NCBI GenBank assembly: GCA_030538275.1
Contig: JAUNUH010000004.1
Coordinates: 62,001 to 126,000 of the forward strand
DNA length: 64,000 bases
DNA from: Flavobacteriaceae bacterium
GTDB taxonomy: Bacteria > Bacteroidota > Bacteroidia > Flavobacteriales > Weeksellaceae
Direction of reading: 5' to 3'
Position 1 is the stretch's first letter. Every line of letters begins with the position of its first letter. The position numbers were made by a program, and so were the translations under genes. Positions 19,651 through 34,584 of the stretch are shown one piece after another. The notes under the pieces are model-generated. The model did no database searches, was not told where the DNA came from, and saw only the letters and a list, made by a program, of their open reading frames with translations.

Positions 19651-19668
19651 TCATTTCCCGATACAAAA
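19651..19668. repeat. Left attachment-site repeat (18 bp)
   Basis: TCATTTCCCGATACAAAA. Read on the minus strand it encodes the same Phe-Cys-Ile-Gly-Lys-stop as the mnmE 3' end, with GGG in place of GGA for Gly. It marks the chromosome-island junction on the PepSY-gene side. Confidence 0.85.
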
Positions 19669-19703: not shown

Positions 19704-19724
19704 TTTTTGTGTCTATTCTGTGTC
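19704..19724 (-). promoter_or_regulatory. Left-end arm-type repeat (GACAC pair)
   Basis: On the minus strand this holds GACACAGAATAGACAC followed by five As, i.e. two GACAC boxes 11 bases apart. The right end has the same arrangement on the opposite strand (33035-33054, period 10). It starts 36 bases inside the left attachment repeat, a normal distance for integrase arm sites. Confidence 0.55.
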
Positions 19725-19894
19725 AAAAGTTGGGAAAATAAGCGAAATTATCGGCTAAAATCGGAAAATTATTTACCGCATATTTGCGGTGATTAGAACA
19801 GTTATTCTCCGCAAAAAATATCAATTCTACATCTTATTTCTTGGAATATCATCTGATACTATCAAATTTTAAAGTATCTAAAACTTATATATTT

Positions 19895-21718
19895 CTATCT
19901 TAATTTTTTACAAATTTCATCTATTGTATCAGATAACTCTTTGAAAAGCAAATCTTGAACCTGAAAAATTTTCTTGTTATTTGTTTTTTTGACTATTAAA
20001 GAGTTTAATTCTTCAAGAAATACTAAGTCCGAACTTAAAAAATCTTTAATATTAACTGACTTATACCTATCATTTAATAATAGATTAAATTCAGAGAGTG
20101 TTTCATTCTTTATTGATTGTAAAGCGTCAAATAGTTCATTGGGCTTTAAGAGTTCAAATAATTCTTTCCTAACCTGATACTCGCTAAATATATCGGTAAC
20201 TAATTCGCCATTATCTTCTGAAAGAGCAATTATAAGTTTATTAACTTTAATTGTTTCTTTTTTTGCTACAATAGATTTATGGGCTTCTTTTATCAATTCA
20301 ACAATAACTTGGTCATAATCTTTTGTCCCGAAATGAAAGATGGAATCATAAAGTCTTTTATCACTTTCTTCTCTTGATTTAGCTATATTAATTCCATTAG
20401 ATAATACATCTTGAATTTCTTGAAGTGATAGGTTAATTAACTTATTATTGGAAAAATAATTGAAAAAGTTAGAAATCTGTAAATAATCATAGATACTATA
20501 TTTGCCATTCTTTGAGTATTCCAAAACTTCATTAAAAAGGTCAGTAAACTCATCATTTGGTAAATGTCTAAAATTGTAGTTAAGTAATTTTCTGAATGCA
20601 GTTGTTTCTTTTGGTATTTCTATTGGGTATCTTGATTTTAACTCATTTGAAAATTTATCTGTGTCAAGATAACCTGTTAAAATATATTGGTATATTGATG
20701 GATAAAAGCAATAAATAGAAATGTTATTTTGCAGATATTTTTCGTGAAATAATTCTAATTCCGATTTAGGTTTTTCTTTTTTAGCTTCGCGGTCAGAATT
20801 GTTATCATTTAGAAGTTGAGAAAAATTAAACAATGAAAAAGCAGAATTAATATCGTCATATCCTTTAAAATCTTCAAAGTCATTTGATGTTAAATTCCCT
20901 GTTTTAAATTCAAGAGTAACAATGAGTGTGAACAATAATACTTCATCAGAATAATTAGCGTGATTTTTTATGAAAGGATATATTTTACTCAGACTTTCAA
21001 GATAAAATGCTATGTTTCTTAAATTTTCTTGTTTGTATTCTTTTAATAGACTATATATGAATTTATTTTTTCCTTCCAGAAAAGCATAAAATTCGGAATT
21101 AGTGTCAATATATTTTTCAAAAAGCAATGGAAAAGAATCAGGCAGATTATTTTTAAAATTTAAAATTCGCCCTACTACTTTTTCTTTTATTGAATTATAG
21201 TTGTCATCCTTATCAAGTATCTTGCTTTCATCTGATAAAAAAACGACTTTGGAATTTTTATGCTCAACAAAATTATTTACATACCCCAAAACTTCTGATA
21301 GTGGTATTTTACACCTTTCTAAATCATCAAAACAAAGAACATTTTTTGAGAATAATGTTAAATCAATATCCACATCTTTGATAAGTTCTTCTGTATCTAT
21401 GCCCCATTTCCCCTTTATCCACTGAAAAGCAGCATTTTTTGATAGTTTGCCAATCGAAGCACTATTTTTTATGTCTAATTTGTTAAGAAATGGTATCAGT
21501 TTTATTTTTAGTTGATAGTCTAACGTTTCTATCTTGCTTATGCCATTAAGTGATAAATAAACAGGCGTTAACTTAGCTTCCTCTGCAAGTTTTGCAAGTA
21601 TATTTTTCCAATAATACGTTTTACCACTTCCCCAAGCACCATTAATAAGCAAAGCATAATTTGTTTTTTCCGTTTTCAAATAATCAGTGAAAACATCTTC
21701 AATATAATTGTTTTTCAT
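19895..21718 (-). CDS. KAP-family P-loop NTPase
   Basis: A 607-residue protein. The N-terminal 170 residues show a KAP-type P-loop ATPase core: Walker A GAWGSGKT at 27-34, a hydrophobic beta strand (VYLSLNGIS), Walker B NVLCFDDLERC at 126-136 with the DDLER typical of KAP proteins, and a sensor-1-like strand SKVVFLSDESK. The remaining 430 residues are helical, without recognised domains or clear membrane helices. KAP NTPases include PifA, which excludes phage T7, so a defence role is reasonable. It is the last gene of a minus-strand operon, 22 bases after the 182-residue gene. No effector domain is visible, so the killing or blocking activity may lie in the helical region or in a partner. Confidence 0.82.
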   Translation of the reverse strand: MKNNYIEDVFTDYLKTEKTNYALLINGAWGSGKTYYWKNILAKLAEEAKLTPVYLSLNGISKIETLDYQLKIKLIPFLNKLDIKNSASIGKLSKNAAFQWIKGKWGIDTEELIKDVDIDLTLFSKNVLCFDDLERCKIPLSEVLGYVNNFVEHKNSKVVFLSDESKILDKDDNYNSIKEKVVGRILNFKNNLPDSFPLLFEKYIDTNSEFYAFLEGKNKFIYSLLKEYKQENLRNIAFYLESLSKIYPFIKNHANYSDEVLLFTLIVTLEFKTGNLTSNDFEDFKGYDDINSAFSLFNFSQLLNDNNSDREAKKEKPKSELELFHEKYLQNNISIYCFYPSIYQYILTGYLDTDKFSNELKSRYPIEIPKETTAFRKLLNYNFRHLPNDEFTDLFNEVLEYSKNGKYSIYDYLQISNFFNYFSNNKLINLSLQEIQDVLSNGINIAKSREESDKRLYDSIFHFGTKDYDQVIVELIKEAHKSIVAKKETIKVNKLIIALSEDNGELVTDIFSEYQVRKELFELLKPNELFDALQSIKNETLSEFNLLLNDRYKSVNIKDFLSSDLVFLEELNSLIVKKTNNKKIFQVQDLLFKELSDTIDEICKKLR

Positions 21719-22300: not shown

Positions 22301-23491
22301 TTATTTAATTTCTAAAACAGATTTTATTTTTTCGCTCGCCACCGCAATACTCTCATTATCCCAAGTAATAGGATTCAGTTTTTTAATAGCGTGGTTATAA
22401 TCGGGGTAAAATTCTTTATATGCTGCGTGATAATTTTTTCCGTATAATTTATCTTGATACCACGTAAAAAAGGAATAAACAATAGATTCGTGAATTTCAT
22501 TTTCTTTTGCAAACTTTGAAACCATATAAGGGTTATTTACATATCTTTTTATGAAATGAAACTTATCTTCTGAAAAGAAAAATTCTCTCGCAAAAGAATC
22601 TGCTTTTTCTTCAATTAGGAATAAATCATTGTCCCCTGTTAAATGAAAACTATTAGTTTCTATCAAGTCATAGTCAAATAAAACGTGATGTAACTCGTGC
22701 AATAATGTGAACCAAAGTGTTGGATATTTTTTATTAAAATCCGTAATTACAACACAGGGCTTATTATTTATAACAAAGGTTGCACCTCTAATCTGTGTTG
22801 TAGATAAATAATTTTGAAAAATTACAGTAACCCCAATATTATAAAGTGCTTTGCAGACAGTAAATAAACCGTCTTTAACATCTTGTGAATATGGTTTGAT
22901 TTTTACAATAAGCTCTTTTAATCGTTCTCTATTGTATTCATTAGGATTATTTATAACTCTGAATGTTTGATAAGCCGATTTTATCCAAAAATCTTTCATT
23001 TTATCTGAAAAATTCTTTTTCGTTCGACTATACAATGGTTCATCAAGTTCTTCTTCAAACTCTCTTATAGACTTATATCCAAAAAACGAGAGAACTTTAT
23101 TGACTAATTCGTCAGTATCATCTTTACTATCAAAGAAACCCAACTTAGTTAGTGTCTTTACATCAAAATTCTTAACAATAAAGGTTGCTTTTCGAGCATT
23201 TTCAATAGAAGCAATATTATCTATGCTCTGATTTTTCAGAACTATCTTTATAAACTCATTTACATCATAATTTATAAACTCTGCTATTTTAACAACGTGA
23301 ATTAAATTAGGTTGTTTAGCTGTTCCGTTTATAATTTCTTCAAATACATCTTTGTCAATATTAAGAAGTTTTAATGCTTTTGTTTTACTTATATTATATT
23401 CTAAAAGTTTTTGTTCAAAAACATCTTTAATATTGATTGATTCTTCTGAAAAAATAGATTCAAGTAATTTATTTATATCTACATTTTCCAT
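22301..23491 (-). CDS. HTH + ImmA/IrrE family metallopeptidase
   Basis: A 396-residue protein. The N-terminal 85 residues look like an XRE-type helix-turn-helix (SKTKALKLLNIDKDVFEEII...). The C-terminal half is a gluzincin-type ImmA/IrrE peptidase with HELHH at 265-269 and the third zinc ligand in IEEKADSFAREFFF (Glu294/295). ImmA-type enzymes cut a repressor to release gene expression, and IrrE-type enzymes cleave a DNA-damage repressor. In this operon it could sense infection or damage and activate the KAP NTPase, or cleave the 182-residue protein. It is first in the operon and has a full-consensus promoter 20-49 bases upstream. It is twice the size of the other ImmA-like peptidase in the island. 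Confidence 0.82.
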   Translation of the reverse strand: MENVDINKLLESIFSEESINIKDVFEQKLLEYNISKTKALKLLNIDKDVFEEIINGTAKQPNLIHVVKIAEFINYDVNEFIKIVLKNQSIDNIASIENARKATFIVKNFDVKTLTKLGFFDSKDDTDELVNKVLSFFGYKSIREFEEELDEPLYSRTKKNFSDKMKDFWIKSAYQTFRVINNPNEYNRERLKELIVKIKPYSQDVKDGLFTVCKALYNIGVTVIFQNYLSTTQIRGATFVINNKPCVVITDFNKKYPTLWFTLLHELHHVLFDYDLIETNSFHLTGDNDLFLIEEKADSFAREFFFSEDKFHFIKRYVNNPYMVSKFAKENEIHESIVYSFFTWYQDKLYGKNYHAAYKEFYPDYNHAIKKLNPITWDNESIAVASEKIKSVLEIK

Positions 23492-27783: not shown

Positions 27784-27840
27784 TACAAATGTTTCTACAA
27801 AGAAACGGATAATATTTGTATTATCAAAGAAACATTTGTA
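27784..27840. promoter_or_regulatory. Nested dyad cluster controlling the XRE-ImmA switch
   Basis: Three nested perfect dyads: TACAAATGTTTCT (27784-27796) with AGAAACATTTGTA (27828-27840), 13 bp per arm; GTTTCT-ACAA-AGAAAC (27791-27806); and GATAATA-TTTG-TATTATC (27808-27825), the last over a -7-like AATATTTG. Further GAAAC/GTTTC half-sites flank it on both sides (27770s and 27850). The arrangement resembles a phage-type operator region between divergent genes. Confidence 0.65.
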
Positions 27841-27884
27841 CTTTTACCGAAACATTATTAACAATAACTAAAAAGTTACTGACA

Positions 27885-28220
27885 ATGAGCACTTCATTAG
27901 ATACCAAAAAGTTTTCCGAGATGATAAAATCTAAAAGAGGAAATATAGGTTTAAGAAATTTAGCTTCTGAAATTGGAGTAAGTGCTTCTACTTTATCAAG
28001 GATAGAACAAGGAAATTTACCTGATATTGATACATATTTGAGATTGTGCGAATGGTTAGAGGTCTCTACTGATTATTTCACAAAATCAACATCTAATGAT
28101 GATATTCAAAATGAGGTAATTGCTCATTTGAGAGCTGACAAAACTTTACCTGCATCAACTTCGGAAGCACTAATACAAATGATAAACCTTGCTTATGCCT
28201 CTGCAAACAAAGACAATTAA
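27885..28220 (+). CDS. XRE-family repressor of the element
   Basis: A 111-residue protein with an N-terminal XRE helix-turn-helix (KRGNIGLRNLASEIGVSASTLSRIEQGNLP, core: ASEIGVSASTLSRIEQG) and a helical C-terminal tail that could dimerise. The ATG at 27885 is preferred over an upstream TTG that would run through the operator. It overlaps the ImmA-like peptidase gene by 26 bases. By analogy to ICEBs1 ImmR, it probably represses excision and transfer genes of the island and is inactivated by the peptidase. Confidence 0.83.
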   Translation: MSTSLDTKKFSEMIKSKRGNIGLRNLASEIGVSASTLSRIEQGNLPDIDTYLRLCEWLEVSTDYFTKSTSNDDIQNEVIAHLRADKTLPASTSEALIQMINLAYASANKDN

Positions 28221-28788
28221 ATACAGACGAGGGTTTAAAAAATGGACTGATGAAACTGTAGTAGGATTAAGAAAGGAATTAGGATTGTTTGCTTCTTCAC
28301 CACTTTGTGCTTTTGAATTATGTAAATATCTTGGTATTCCAATACTAGAACCATCTAATGTTCAAGATTTACCACAAGATAAATTAGATGAACTTTTAGG
28401 CAAAGGTGCTAAACATTGGTCTGCTGTAACTATTCCTTTGGAAAATGAGAATTACTTAATTATTCATAATCCAAGTCATTCCCCTGCAAGACAACAGAGT
28501 AACTTAATGCACGAAATAGCTCATATTCTCTGTAAACATAAGGTTTCTAATCAAATTAAGGAAACAGGATTGGCTGGTTTTTTAAGAAATTTTGATGTTG
28601 AACAAGAAAATGAAGCGGAATGGTTAGGTTCATCTTTACAGTTACCAAGACCTGCTCTTTTATATTCTTTAAAAAAGAATATGACAGTTGAAGAAATTGC
28701 AGGACATTATAATTGTAGCGTAGATATGGTACAATATAGGATTAATATTACAGGAGTGAAAAAGCAACTAAAATATTTGAAATATTAG
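28195..28788 (+). CDS. ImmA/IrrE family metallopeptidase (anti-repressor)
   Basis: A 197-residue gluzincin-type peptidase: HEIAH at residues 106-110 gives two zinc ligands and the catalytic Glu, and EQENEAEWLGSSLQLPRPALL gives the third ligand (core: ENEAEWLGSSL). A C-terminal helix (MTVEEIAGHYNCSVDMVQYR) follows, common in this family. It overlaps the XRE gene by 26 bases, so production is coupled. In ICEBs1 the equivalent ImmA cleaves ImmR and triggers excision; I infer the same here. It is distinct from the larger HTH-ImmA protein of the KAP operon. Confidence 0.85.
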   Translation: MPLQTKTIKYRRGFKKWTDETVVGLRKELGLFASSPLCAFELCKYLGIPILEPSNVQDLPQDKLDELLGKGAKHWSAVTIPLENENYLIIHNPSHSPARQQSNLMHEIAHILCKHKVSNQIKETGLAGFLRNFDVEQENEAEWLGSSLQLPRPALLYSLKKNMTVEEIAGHYNCSVDMVQYRINITGVKKQLKYLKY

Positions 28789-31484: not shown

Positions 31485-32567
31485 TTAGTCATTATCTGAC
31501 TTTAAAAGATTTACCGCATTTCGTAAATCTATATTAATTACTTTGGCATAAATCATCGTAGTTTTTATATCTTTATGATTGAGTAATTTGCTTAAATGAA
31601 CAATGCTTACTCCTTTGTGCAACATTATTGTAGCAAACGAATGTCTTGCACAATGGAATGTAATTGCCTTTTTAATATCTGCCATAAAAACCCATTCTCT
31701 CAAAATAGTATTCATCCAACTATTGTAATTTAAGTCTTTAAATATTTCTTCATCTGGATTCTCTGTTTCTCGAAGAAATTTGATGGCATCTTTTACGATT
31801 GGCAAATATTGCAATTCATCTGTTTTTTGTCTGTGAAAAGGAATTGTATAGTTTCCTTCAAGGTCTTTCTTAATATTTTTCCATTTCAGATTTTTAACAT
31901 CAGCATACGCCATTCCTGTTTTGCACGAAAATAAAAATGCTTTTTTTAGTAAAGGATTTTTACATTCTGTATTTTCAAGTTTTGTTATTTCCTCTTCTGT
32001 CAAATATTCTCTGATTGCGTGTTTTACTTTTGGTGCTTTTACATCATCGGCATAATCAACATCAATCATTCTGTCTTTAAATGCTTTATGTACACCGTGT
32101 AAAACCACATTAAAATAATTTGCCGAAGATGAGGTTTTAAGTTGTTGTATATCAATTAAAAAACACTTAAAATCATTTAGCCAATCTTCATCTAAATCAA
32201 TAAATTTTATTCCATTTGGTGCAAATTCATTCAAATGTTTCAATGCAGATTTCCAAGTAGAATAATTTTCGCCTGAACTTTCTCTTTTTTTGGTTAGAAA
32301 CTCGAAATAATCAATGAAATCATCAATTTTATGTTTAGGTTTCTTAATTCCAAATTTATTATTTTGAATTTGTAAATTCAGTTCATATTTAACAACATTT
32401 TCGAGTTTCTTTATTTCTTTGTTGTATTCTCGTTCTTGTTGATTTTTGGGATTGTCAAAAAGAACTAAATCCGTCTTTTGTCGATGTCTTTTACCATTCA
32501 CATAGTAATCAAACCAAATTCGGCTCTTACCGTCTTTTAGAGGTCTTAAAAATGAACTTATTTTCAT
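31485..32567 (-). CDS. Tyrosine recombinase (integrase) of the island
   Basis: A 360-residue site-specific recombinase: N-terminal arm-binding region (about 1-75), SAM-like core-binding domain (about 80-185) and catalytic domain. Catalytic residues visible are Lys248, His305-x-x-Arg308 (TFHCARHSFAT), His331 (LLNHKDIKTTM) and the nucleophile Tyr340. The first catalytic Arg, normally in a TGLRxxD motif, is Ala220 here (KTGMAYADV). Loss of Arg I is known in IntDOT of CTnDOT, so activity is still likely. It lies close to the right attachment repeat at mnmE, shares a 4-base overlap with the upstream zinc-finger/HTH gene, and is the obvious agent of integration. Confidence 0.93.
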   Translation of the reverse strand: MKISSFLRPLKDGKSRIWFDYYVNGKRHRQKTDLVLFDNPKNQQEREYNKEIKKLENVVKYELNLQIQNNKFGIKKPKHKIDDFIDYFEFLTKKRESSGENYSTWKSALKHLNEFAPNGIKFIDLDEDWLNDFKCFLIDIQQLKTSSSANYFNVVLHGVHKAFKDRMIDVDYADDVKAPKVKHAIREYLTEEEITKLENTECKNPLLKKAFLFSCKTGMAYADVKNLKWKNIKKDLEGNYTIPFHRQKTDELQYLPIVKDAIKFLRETENPDEEIFKDLNYNSWMNTILREWVFMADIKKAITFHCARHSFATIMLHKGVSIVHLSKLLNHKDIKTTMIYAKVINIDLRNAVNLLKSDND

Positions 32568-32956
32568 ATTTCCGATTTAATTAAAACTTTTCGTTCGCTA
32601 ATTTTTTTCACTATAACCTTGTTTTCTTTAATCACACGATATAATGTCTTTCTACTAATTCCTTTCAATTTACAATATTCATCAGGCGATAGATATTTTT
32701 CAGAATCAGTCATTTGTTGATTCAGCAACTTACTTAATGTTATTTGAATTTGGTTAAGTAATTCTGCTTGATGTTGTAATTGTCGTTTTACAAAATCTTC
32801 AAAATTTATTTCGAGGTCTAATTCATTTCTTTTGTTCGCCTTATATGCTCTTGAATTACAAGTATGACTACAATATTTTGTGGTTCTTTTTTGTGCATCA
32901 AATTCCTTTCTACAAAACAAGCAAACTTTCTTATATGTTTTAATGGTTAAAAGCAT
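32564..32956 (-). CDS. Zinc-finger plus HTH protein coupled to the integrase
   Basis: A 130-residue protein with two parts. Residues 12-33 form a Cys4 zinc finger (CLFCRKEF...YCSHTC), and after a coiled-coil linker (about 55-85, QLQHQAELLNQIQITL) residues 88-120 form an excisionase-type HTH (YLSPDEYCKLKGISRKTLYR). It probably acts as directionality factor or transcription regulator of the integrase. The stop overlaps the integrase ATG by 4 bases. The four phased GGACA boxes start 8 bases upstream of its ATG, so it may autoregulate there. Confidence 0.8.
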   Translation of the reverse strand: MLLTIKTYKKVCLFCRKEFDAQKRTTKYCSHTCNSRAYKANKRNELDLEINFEDFVKRQLQHQAELLNQIQITLSKLLNQQMTDSEKYLSPDEYCKLKGISRKTLYRVIKENKVIVKKISERKVLIKSEI

Positions 32957-32963
32957 ATTTAAC

Positions 32964-33054
32964 GGACATAAGAGGACATAGATGGACAGAAGTGGACAAA
33001 CTCATATTTTAAACATTTCAAGATTTAATTTTTAGACACAAATAGACACAAAAA
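32964..33054. promoter_or_regulatory. Phased GGACA/GACAC repeats at the right end of the island
   Basis: GGACA begins at 32964, 32974, 32984 and 32994, an exact 10-base period (one helical turn). GACAC occurs at 33035 and 33045, again 10 bases apart, each followed by an A-run; a further GGACACAAAC lies at 33087-33096. The cluster separates the zinc-finger/HTH gene from the right attachment repeat. The GACAC pair matches the inverted pair at the left end (19704-19724), so integrase arm sites are the best reading; the GGACA series may be arm sites or operators. Confidence 0.6.
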
Positions 33055-33189
33055 ATAAATTTGTGACCAAATCTAAACATTTTTTTGGACACAAACGCTA
33101 AAAATATGAAAACATCAGAAAATTAAATGTTTGTAACTATCTGATTTATATGGTATTTTGTTTCCGATAGTTTCCGTTACTTTCTTTGG

Positions 33190-33207
33190 TCATTTTCCGA
33201 TACAAAA
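33190..33207. repeat. Right attachment-site repeat within the mnmE 3' end (18 bp)
   Basis: TCATTTTCCGATACAAAA; on the minus strand it encodes the MnmE C-terminus Phe-Cys-Ile-Gly-Lys and the TGA stop. The pair with 19651-19668 differs at one base, a synonymous Gly codon change. Confidence 0.85.
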
Positions 33208-34584
33208 CTCACCAAAAATAGTTCCCAGGATATCACGGTCAATTTCGATAGCGCCGGTTATACTGCCCAATTCACGAATGGCTTCGCGTATATCTTGTGC
33301 CAACAAATCGCCCGGAATCTCCATTTCCATACCCTGCTCTATGGCTTGTAGTGCAAGCATGGTAGATTGCAATGCGTTCAAATGTCGTACTTGGGTTATC
33401 ACCTGCGCATCTTCCTGATGCCAAGATTTTACATATTTGGCAATTGAAGTTCCTAGTGAAGCAACTTGTGACGTATTTTTAGCAGATATCGCAAAAGATT
33501 GAATTATTACAAAATGATTTTTTATTTTTTGAATGAACTCTTCAGATAAAAATTCTTCAGAAATATCATGTAAATCTATTTTATTTTCAATTAAAAATAA
33601 ATGTATTTCCTTATCAAAAAGAGGTTTCAGCATTTCATATATTTCATCCAAACTTACATCTCTACGATCATATAAAAACAAAACTAATTTTGATTTCAAT
33701 GCGTTGGAAATTGAGCGTTTCACACCCATAGATTCAATGACATCATCAGTCTCGCGCAACCCAGCAGTATCCATAAGGCGCAATTTGATTCCGTCCACCA
33801 CAATTACATCTTCTATAGTATCCCGAGTTGTACCTGCAATATCAGAAACTATGGCTCGCTCTTCTTTCAACAAGGCATTGAGCAAAGAGGATTTACCCGC
33901 ATTAGGTTTCCCAAGAATAGCCACGGAAACCCCTTGTTTTATAGCATTTCCATATTCAAAAGAATCAATAAGTGGTTGTATATGAGATTTAAGATTTTGA
34001 ATCAACATTTTGAAATCATCCCGATTCGCAAATTCCACATCTTCATCAGAAAAATCCAACTCGAGCTCCATCAAAGCAGAAAAACGAATTAAATCTTTGC
34101 GCAAAACAGCTAATTGCTTCGAAATTCCACCTCGCATTTGGTTCATAGCAACTTCATGAGAAGACTTTGAATCAGAAGCAATTAAATCTGCCACAGCTTC
34201 TGCCTGAGCCAAATCCATTTTACCGTTCATAAACGCTCGCATCGTAAATTCGCCCGGAGCAGCCATACGAACACCTAAATCCAAAAACAACTGAATTATT
34301 CTTTGTTGAATATAGGGCGAACCATGGCAAGAAATCTCTACAACATCTTCTCCCGTATAGGATTGTGGCGAGACAAAAACAGAAACCAAAACCTCATCTA
34401 CGATTCCTGCACGATCTCGAATTCGCCCAAAATGAACCCTGCCTGTCCCCGATTTTCGCAAATTTTTTCGATCAAAAACCTGCTGCGTAATTTCAATCAC
34501 ACCTGTGCCCGAAAGCCTTATCACAGCAATCGCCGCAACCGAACTTCCAGTTGCAGGTGCTATTATAGGTTCATTCGGATTCAT
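33190..34584 (-). CDS. mnmE: tRNA modification GTPase MnmE
   Basis: A 464-residue enzyme that, with MnmG, installs the 5-aminomethyl-type group on U34 of certain tRNAs. The N-terminal folate-binding domain (MNPNEPIIAPATGSSVAAIAV, part: IIAPATG) is followed by a helical domain and an inserted G domain with GKPNAGKSSLLNAL (P-loop), DTAGLRETDD (G3) and the NKID G4 motif. The C-terminus ends in the essential FCIGK, intact despite being the integration site: the 18-bp attachment repeat supplies the final codons and stop. It remains full length and presumably functional. The mnmE 3' end is also the known target of SGI1-type islands. Confidence 0.96.
   Translation of the reverse strand: MNPNEPIIAPATGSSVAAIAVIRLSGTGVIEITQQVFDRKNLRKSGTGRVHFGRIRDRAGIVDEVLVSVFVSPQSYTGEDVVEISCHGSPYIQQRIIQLFLDLGVRMAAPGEFTMRAFMNGKMDLAQAEAVADLIASDSKSSHEVAMNQMRGGISKQLAVLRKDLIRFSALMELELDFSDEDVEFANRDDFKMLIQNLKSHIQPLIDSFEYGNAIKQGVSVAILGKPNAGKSSLLNALLKEERAIVSDIAGTTRDTIEDVIVVDGIKLRLMDTAGLRETDDVIESMGVKRSISNALKSKLVLFLYDRRDVSLDEIYEMLKPLFDKEIHLFLIENKIDLHDISEEFLSEEFIQKIKNHFVIIQSFAISAKNTSQVASLGTSIAKYVKSWHQEDAQVITQVRHLNALQSTMLALQAIEQGMEMEIPGDLLAQDIREAIRELGSITGAIEIDRDILGTIFGEFCIGK

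Follow-up and report, generated by a model that had tools for sequence, protein, structure and literature searches.

The locus described here raises the question of what four identical GGACA boxes, starting at 32964, 32974, 32984 and 32994 in exact 10-bp steps, are doing between the 3' end of mnmE and a two-gene operon for a zinc-finger/HTH protein and a tyrosine integrase. An earlier note on this DNA grouped them with GACAC boxes at 33035 and 33045 and with GGACACAAAC at 33087 as "operator or integrase arm". All of these boxes lie where it placed them in the window (the whole 64-kb stretch of DNA that was analysed), but the grouping comes apart: there are two types of site, the GACAC boxes being of the integrase arm type and the GGACA array, which reads TGTCC on the gene strand, going with the zinc-finger/HTH protein. 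The two site types had been overlooked, as had inverted GACAC boxes at the far end of the element and an inverted copy, TTTGTGACC (Table 1).

A phased array at the integrase end of an island in mnmE

The final 18 bases of mnmE, a bacterial gene for tRNA modification, are repeated directly, with one mismatch, at a distal position, and from these repeats we conclude that the window holds a 13.5-kb element in the 3' end of mnmE. As expected of a site-specific integrative element, the two cores, 13.5 kb apart, flank an integrase. The zinc-finger/HTH gene overlaps the integrase gene by 4 bp, and the array begins 8 bp upstream of its start codon. Read on the gene strand, the array is TTTGTCCAC TTCTGTCCAT CTATGTCCTC TTATGTCCGT.

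Table 1. Positions of the array, the attachment cores, the arm-type sites and the associated genes in the window
Feature	Position	Strand	Basis or remark
Phased array, four TGTCC boxes (gene strand; GGACA on +)	32964..32998	-	10-bp steps and comparison of relatives
mnmE, target gene; its 3' end is the source of the core	33190..34584	-	
Attachment core, int end, last mnmE codons (TTTTGTATCGGAAAATGA, FCIGK stop)	33190..33207	-	
Attachment core, distal end (TTTTGTATCGGGAAATGA)	19651..19668	-	17/18 identical to int-end core
Tyrosine integrase, 360 aa (Arm-DNA-bind_5, SAM_5, Phage_integrase)	31485..32567	-	
Zinc-finger (CxxC...CxxxC) + long helix + wHTH protein, 130 aa, excisionase family, proposed array reader (K103 in S-R-K-T)	32564..32956	-	
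Candidate operon promoter, Bacteroidota -7 element TAGATTTG	33068..33075	-	Consensus match only
Two integrase arm-type sites, TTTGTGTCTA on gene strand (GACAC boxes), 10 bp apart	33033..33052	-	
Inverted arm-like site TTTGTGACC	33060..33068	+	Sequence
Third integrase arm-type site TTTGTGTCCA	33086..33095	-	
Two distal-end arm-type sites (TTTGTGTCTA, TTCTGTGTCA)	19706..19725	+	Orientation opposite to int-end sites

Within the window the GGACA/TGTCC array is confined to the int end, ahead of the zinc-finger/HTH gene, and it is the only place in the 64 kb where GGACA recurs at 10-bp spacing. The three-box pattern has a chance expectation of 0.05 per window with up to two mismatches allowed, and at no other place in the window is a GC-rich 5-mer (at least three G/C) repeated four times in 10-bp register.

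The cargo of the island includes a gene at 19895-21718, the final one ahead of the distal end, whose product has a KAP P-loop domain and matches the candidate defence family PDC-S49 (5.5e-74). Two M78-peptidase proteins (22301-23491 and 27816-28788), one with an upstream HTH partner, are likely to be regulator/protease pairs; the protein at 22301-23491 also partially matches PD-Lambda-2_B. At the distal ends of several mnmE islands, including L290 (690-1331) and L306 (679-1320), the last gene before the core encodes a conserved 213-aa protein resembling DUF6266, although only a look-alike in L039 was confirmed as belonging to that family. Several genomes carry more than one copy of the zinc-finger/HTH gene or tandem attachment cores; the occurrence of either in one place in G1111 C25 (L313, L300) and G040 C133 (L069/L078) suggests stacked islands at mnmE.

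Conservation of phase and position in relatives

Relatives were collected by whole-genome searches and by one scan of genome contigs, the scan giving 80 named loci across Bacteroidota. The comparison set comprised 59 non-redundant upstream regions, 50 of them at 216-433 bp from an mnmE-type core. Within 110 bp ahead of the start codon, the best match averaged over the 59 regions was 18.9/30 at lag 10 and 17.5/30 at lag 20, against about 12/30 at all other lags from 4 to 25. For integrases without the zinc-finger/HTH gene, the raw lag-10 score was misled by T-tracts near the core, a problem cleared by a composition-weighted score together with lag 20. Just inside the core of mnmE-site integrases L020-L029, T-tracts recur with a period of about 10 bp and are possibly intrinsic bends or host-factor sites.

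The phasing is linked to the zinc-finger/HTH gene. With lag 20 set apart, lag 10 scored highest in 44 of the 50 mnmE loci that have the gene but in only 5 of 14 same-site integrases that lack it (Fisher p 0.0002), and the lag-20 score was 19.2 with the gene and 6.5, the baseline, without it. The five exceptions come from tandem arm pairs and similar repeats; a run of at least three boxes was found at none of the mnmE-site integrases lacking the gene, although arm motifs are retained there. Homologues on other target sites (L031, L063, L064, L076) likewise have no array.

Most relatives have an array in exact 10-bp steps ahead of the zinc-finger/HTH gene, with 3-60 bp between array and start codon in most loci. 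The box itself varies (GATACA, GTTACA, GCTACA/GCAACA, GCACCA, GGCACA/GACACA, GAAACA, GGACA, TTGAC, GACAG, TGTCC) around a general form of G-N-N-A-C-A followed by four loose bases. Conservation of the boxes in related elements, which the earlier note had proposed as a check, is therefore found in their 10-bp phase and position but not in their letters, and a literal sequence search would miss it for that reason: among 296 genomes the GGACA pattern itself recurs in only two others, G263 and G272. The G263 pattern belongs to a true relative at mnmE. That of G272 was rejected as a relative, being an unrelated dispersed repeat with no integrase alongside.

The G272 arrays, in a genome of the same family, are intergenic (L267, C1:80314-80358; L269, C1:568481-568575; L276, C4:198486-198560) and consist of 5-12 GGACA/GGTCA/AGACA boxes in 10-bp steps after a hairpin-like sequence, TTCGGAAAAACGTCTCTTTTTCCGAAG. 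Such long arrays in a related genome would fit the idea that the window array is a chance repeat or one of a dispersed family with no role here. We regard this as so improbable as to be negligible, since none of 300 simulated windows contained a GC-rich 5-mer four times in 10-bp register and since the position and phase of the array are conserved phylum-wide. A second class of array, with CTTA-ended boxes in 10-bp steps, was seen in the Sphingobacteriales-type loci L179-L207, farther upstream at 130-230 bp from the start codon.

Assignment of the two site types to two proteins

Relatives at mnmE have two sets of motifs between the core and the operon. Set A lies near the core at both element ends and takes forms such as TTTGTTGCC, TTTGTTGCT and TTTGTACC; its form in the window is TTTGTGTC[CT]A, that is, the GACAC boxes at 33035, 33045 and 33087 and those at the distal end. 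Set B is the run of boxes in exact 10-bp steps directly ahead of the zinc-finger/HTH gene. Set A motifs are present on most of 14 distal ends, roughly 50-100 bp from the core, whereas the set B array is present on none of the 14, the window's included.

Covariation separates the two sets in the same way. In partial Mantel tests the array followed the zinc-finger/HTH protein with Int held constant (r 0.37, p 0.002) and did not follow Int with the zinc-finger/HTH protein held constant (r -0.04, p 0.62). The arms behaved the other way round, following Int (r 0.47, p 0.001) but failing to follow the zinc-finger/HTH protein (r 0.10, p 0.14). Arm motifs were unreliably extracted for L011, L026, L061, L171 and L172, which added noise to these tests, and the pattern was repeated in an extended set of 44. 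The first Mantel run and the column scan described below took the window in the GGACA orientation; the Mantel result is unchanged when the window is left out.

Judged by their presence at both ends of the window's element and by the dependence of arm sequence on Int across the family, the GACAC boxes behave as putative integrase arm sites. That the array might be a set of extra arm sites is suggested by the TGTCC that it has in common with the arm sites of the window (TTTGTGTCC), and by arm pairs in other loci that are likewise 10-11 bp apart. We nevertheless consider this very unlikely: the distal ends lack the array while most keep arm motifs, array sequence does not follow Int when the zinc-finger/HTH protein is controlled for, and same-site integrases without the zinc-finger/HTH gene retain arms yet show no run of at least three boxes. 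The broader proposal that every box is an integrase arm is ruled out by the distal ends and the Mantel tests. Some recognition may still be shared between array and arm boxes, because both contain an NNNACA-like core.

The assignment of the array to the zinc-finger/HTH protein is sharpened by a single residue. When every column of both proteins was scanned against box positions, the top column was the X of an S-R-X-T motif in the recognition helix of the zinc-finger/HTH protein (z 12.1, box position 2); the best integrase column reached z 6.2. Methionine at this position goes with GATACA/GTTACA, tryptophan with GCWACA, threonine with GAAACA and lysine with TGTCC. In the first set, all 15 loci with M had GATACA/GTTACA-type boxes, and all 10 with W had GC at box positions 1 and 2. 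The rule was fixed before new loci were collected, at which point T was known from a single example. New non-redundant loci with arrays then gave GCAACA/GCTACA for W (4/4), GATACA for M (1/1) and GAAACA for T (7/8, not seven independent events because several T loci are close kin). New S-R-R-T proteins had G[GA]CACA boxes. There were two exceptions: L222, a T-type protein with GATACA, and L227, a W locus at which no array was detectable.

The trees carry at least 14 changes of the recognition-helix residue and about 14 of box position 2; the supported independent contrasts all agree (3/3, 3/3 and 2/2), numbers too small for significance on trees that are weakly resolved. Across the family, one recognition-helix residue largely predicts the sequence of the box. 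GGACA on the gene strand in L032 and L177 had raised the possibility that the window array is flipped, with GGACA as the box. This was ruled out by L230, a divergent new protein with the same K residue as the window and a TGTCC array on the same strand; TGTCC is therefore the box, and the window array need not be taken as flipped.

The protein to which the array is assigned has several features of an Xis/Cox/Apl-type recombination directionality factor (RDF). It has a small wHTH DNA-binding domain, and its relatives score 47.9 bits with the excisionase model TIGR01764 (cut-off 28.8) and well over the cut-off for HTH_17; the window protein is divergent and lies under both cut-offs (19.7 bits with TIGR01764). 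PHROG excisionase families phrog_66 and phrog_575 were also matched, and Pukovnik Xis is its sole sequence relative of solved structure (profile match 2.3e-5). In an AlphaFold model (pLDDT 91) the protein folds into a small hairpin resembling a zinc finger, a long helix and a wHTH whose recognition helix starts at K103. The structures nearest to the wHTH are Pukovnik Xis, BldC-DNA, lambda Xis-DNA, the lambda Xis filament complex and RdfS. The scores of these structures are modest if taken alone (Z 6.1-7.3 over 44-47 residues, wHTH part only), and the top ranks are occupied by excisionases and BldC. As for other RDFs, the gene adjoins that of a tyrosine integrase in most loci, with an overlap or a gap of a few bases, and direct repeats one helical turn apart lie in the attachment region, their reader being assigned by covariation only. 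Some relatives have serial HTH_17 domains, of which Pfam marks three in L032 and inspection by eye suggests about four each in L059 and L062; this raises the question of whether one molecule could span several boxes.

Proposed role of the array and comparison with known systems

At RDF operators, direct repeats recur once per helical turn; head-to-tail binding there bends the DNA for excision, and some RDFs also repress promoters (PMC7498355). We consider it very probable, on comparative grounds, that the array is where the zinc-finger/wHTH protein binds and that it would both bend the int end for excision from mnmE and let the operon limit itself. While the phasing, position and int-end restriction of the array, its association with the zinc-finger/HTH gene and the box/residue covariation are computed, we infer binding, cooperativity, bending, excision control and self-repression as follows. 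Each 10-bp box would take one zinc-finger/wHTH monomer, the monomers lining up head-to-tail along a single face of the helix in the manner of Xis, Cox, Apl and BldC. Their occupancy would bend the int-end attachment region, so that integrase on the core and on the arm sites at both ends would cut the island out of the mnmE 3' end. The zinc-finger/HTH protein thus probably helps this mobile island to leave mnmE. Cooperative binding on one face, which the earlier note had suggested, is well supported by the sequence comparison for the array, but the boxes it had counted together are assigned to two different proteins.

The array directly adjoins the start codon of its own gene, so that a protein bound there should also hold down expression of the zinc-finger/HTH-integrase operon, and the array is probably self-regulating. 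TAnnTTTG elements, of the Bacteroidota -7 type, occur upstream of the array in 32/50 loci (37 seen and 12 expected, three times chance), which places the array probably within the transcribed leader of the operon. These elements, the 3-60 bp between array and start codon in most loci and the purely transcriptional role of the homologous BldC would all suit an operator at which the zinc-finger/HTH protein does nothing but repress its own operon, with no direct part in excision. We think such a restricted role unlikely, as the family match of the protein is to excisionases, the array is sited inside the attachment region, where it accompanies an integrase operon, and RDFs often do both jobs (PMC7498355).

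The mechanism that we favour, an excisionase array, is of a known kind. In a literature search covering papers available without subscription, no description was found of a zinc-finger excisionase family on mnmE islands, of arrays conserved in phase and diverse in letters or of a single-residue code. Excisionases are usually described as relaxed in binding specificity, RdfS being one for which no consensus site had been found; the present family supplies, phylum-wide, dozens of natural protein/array pairs in which a 10-bp phase is fixed and the letters change. With so many pairs and one predictive residue, both excisionase specificity and cross-avoidance between islands become testable by single substitutions. 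Our suggestion, possible if on balance doubtful, is that Bacteroidota islands competing for mnmE carry a zinc-finger excisionase with a one-residue box code, and that the boxes have diversified so that excisionases do not cross-act at the shared site. The phased array also offers a simple genome signature for island ends and for the operator.

Among known systems, CTnDOT Xis2c and Xis2d are Bacteroidota RDFs that act with a tyrosine integrase. Lambda Xis, Pukovnik Xis, RdfS and P2 Cox share with the zinc-finger/HTH protein the wHTH fold (VIA-align Z 5.2-7.3 over 44-46 residues) and its proposed action at attachment regions with a tyrosine integrase, but lack its N-terminal treble-clef-like zinc finger and long helix and the two to four HTH domains of some relatives; unlike RdfS, with no consensus site, it is paired with sharply defined boxes that covary with one residue. 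BldC of Streptomyces is similar in its MerR-like wHTH, and its cooperative binding to direct repeats (PMC5859096) is like that proposed here, yet it is a developmental regulator outside any integrase operon. SGI1-type islands, which are gammaproteobacterial, also use the 3' end of trmE/mnmE (PMC8409611), the target being the point of likeness. Apl of phage 186 is a small excisionase that also represses, and its short operators are direct repeats 10-11 bp apart, several in a row, at the attachment site (PMC7498355). Apl has no N-terminal zinc finger and uses separate arrays at att and at early promoters, whereas here one array lies between the arm sites and the start codon of the gene for its own proposed reader.
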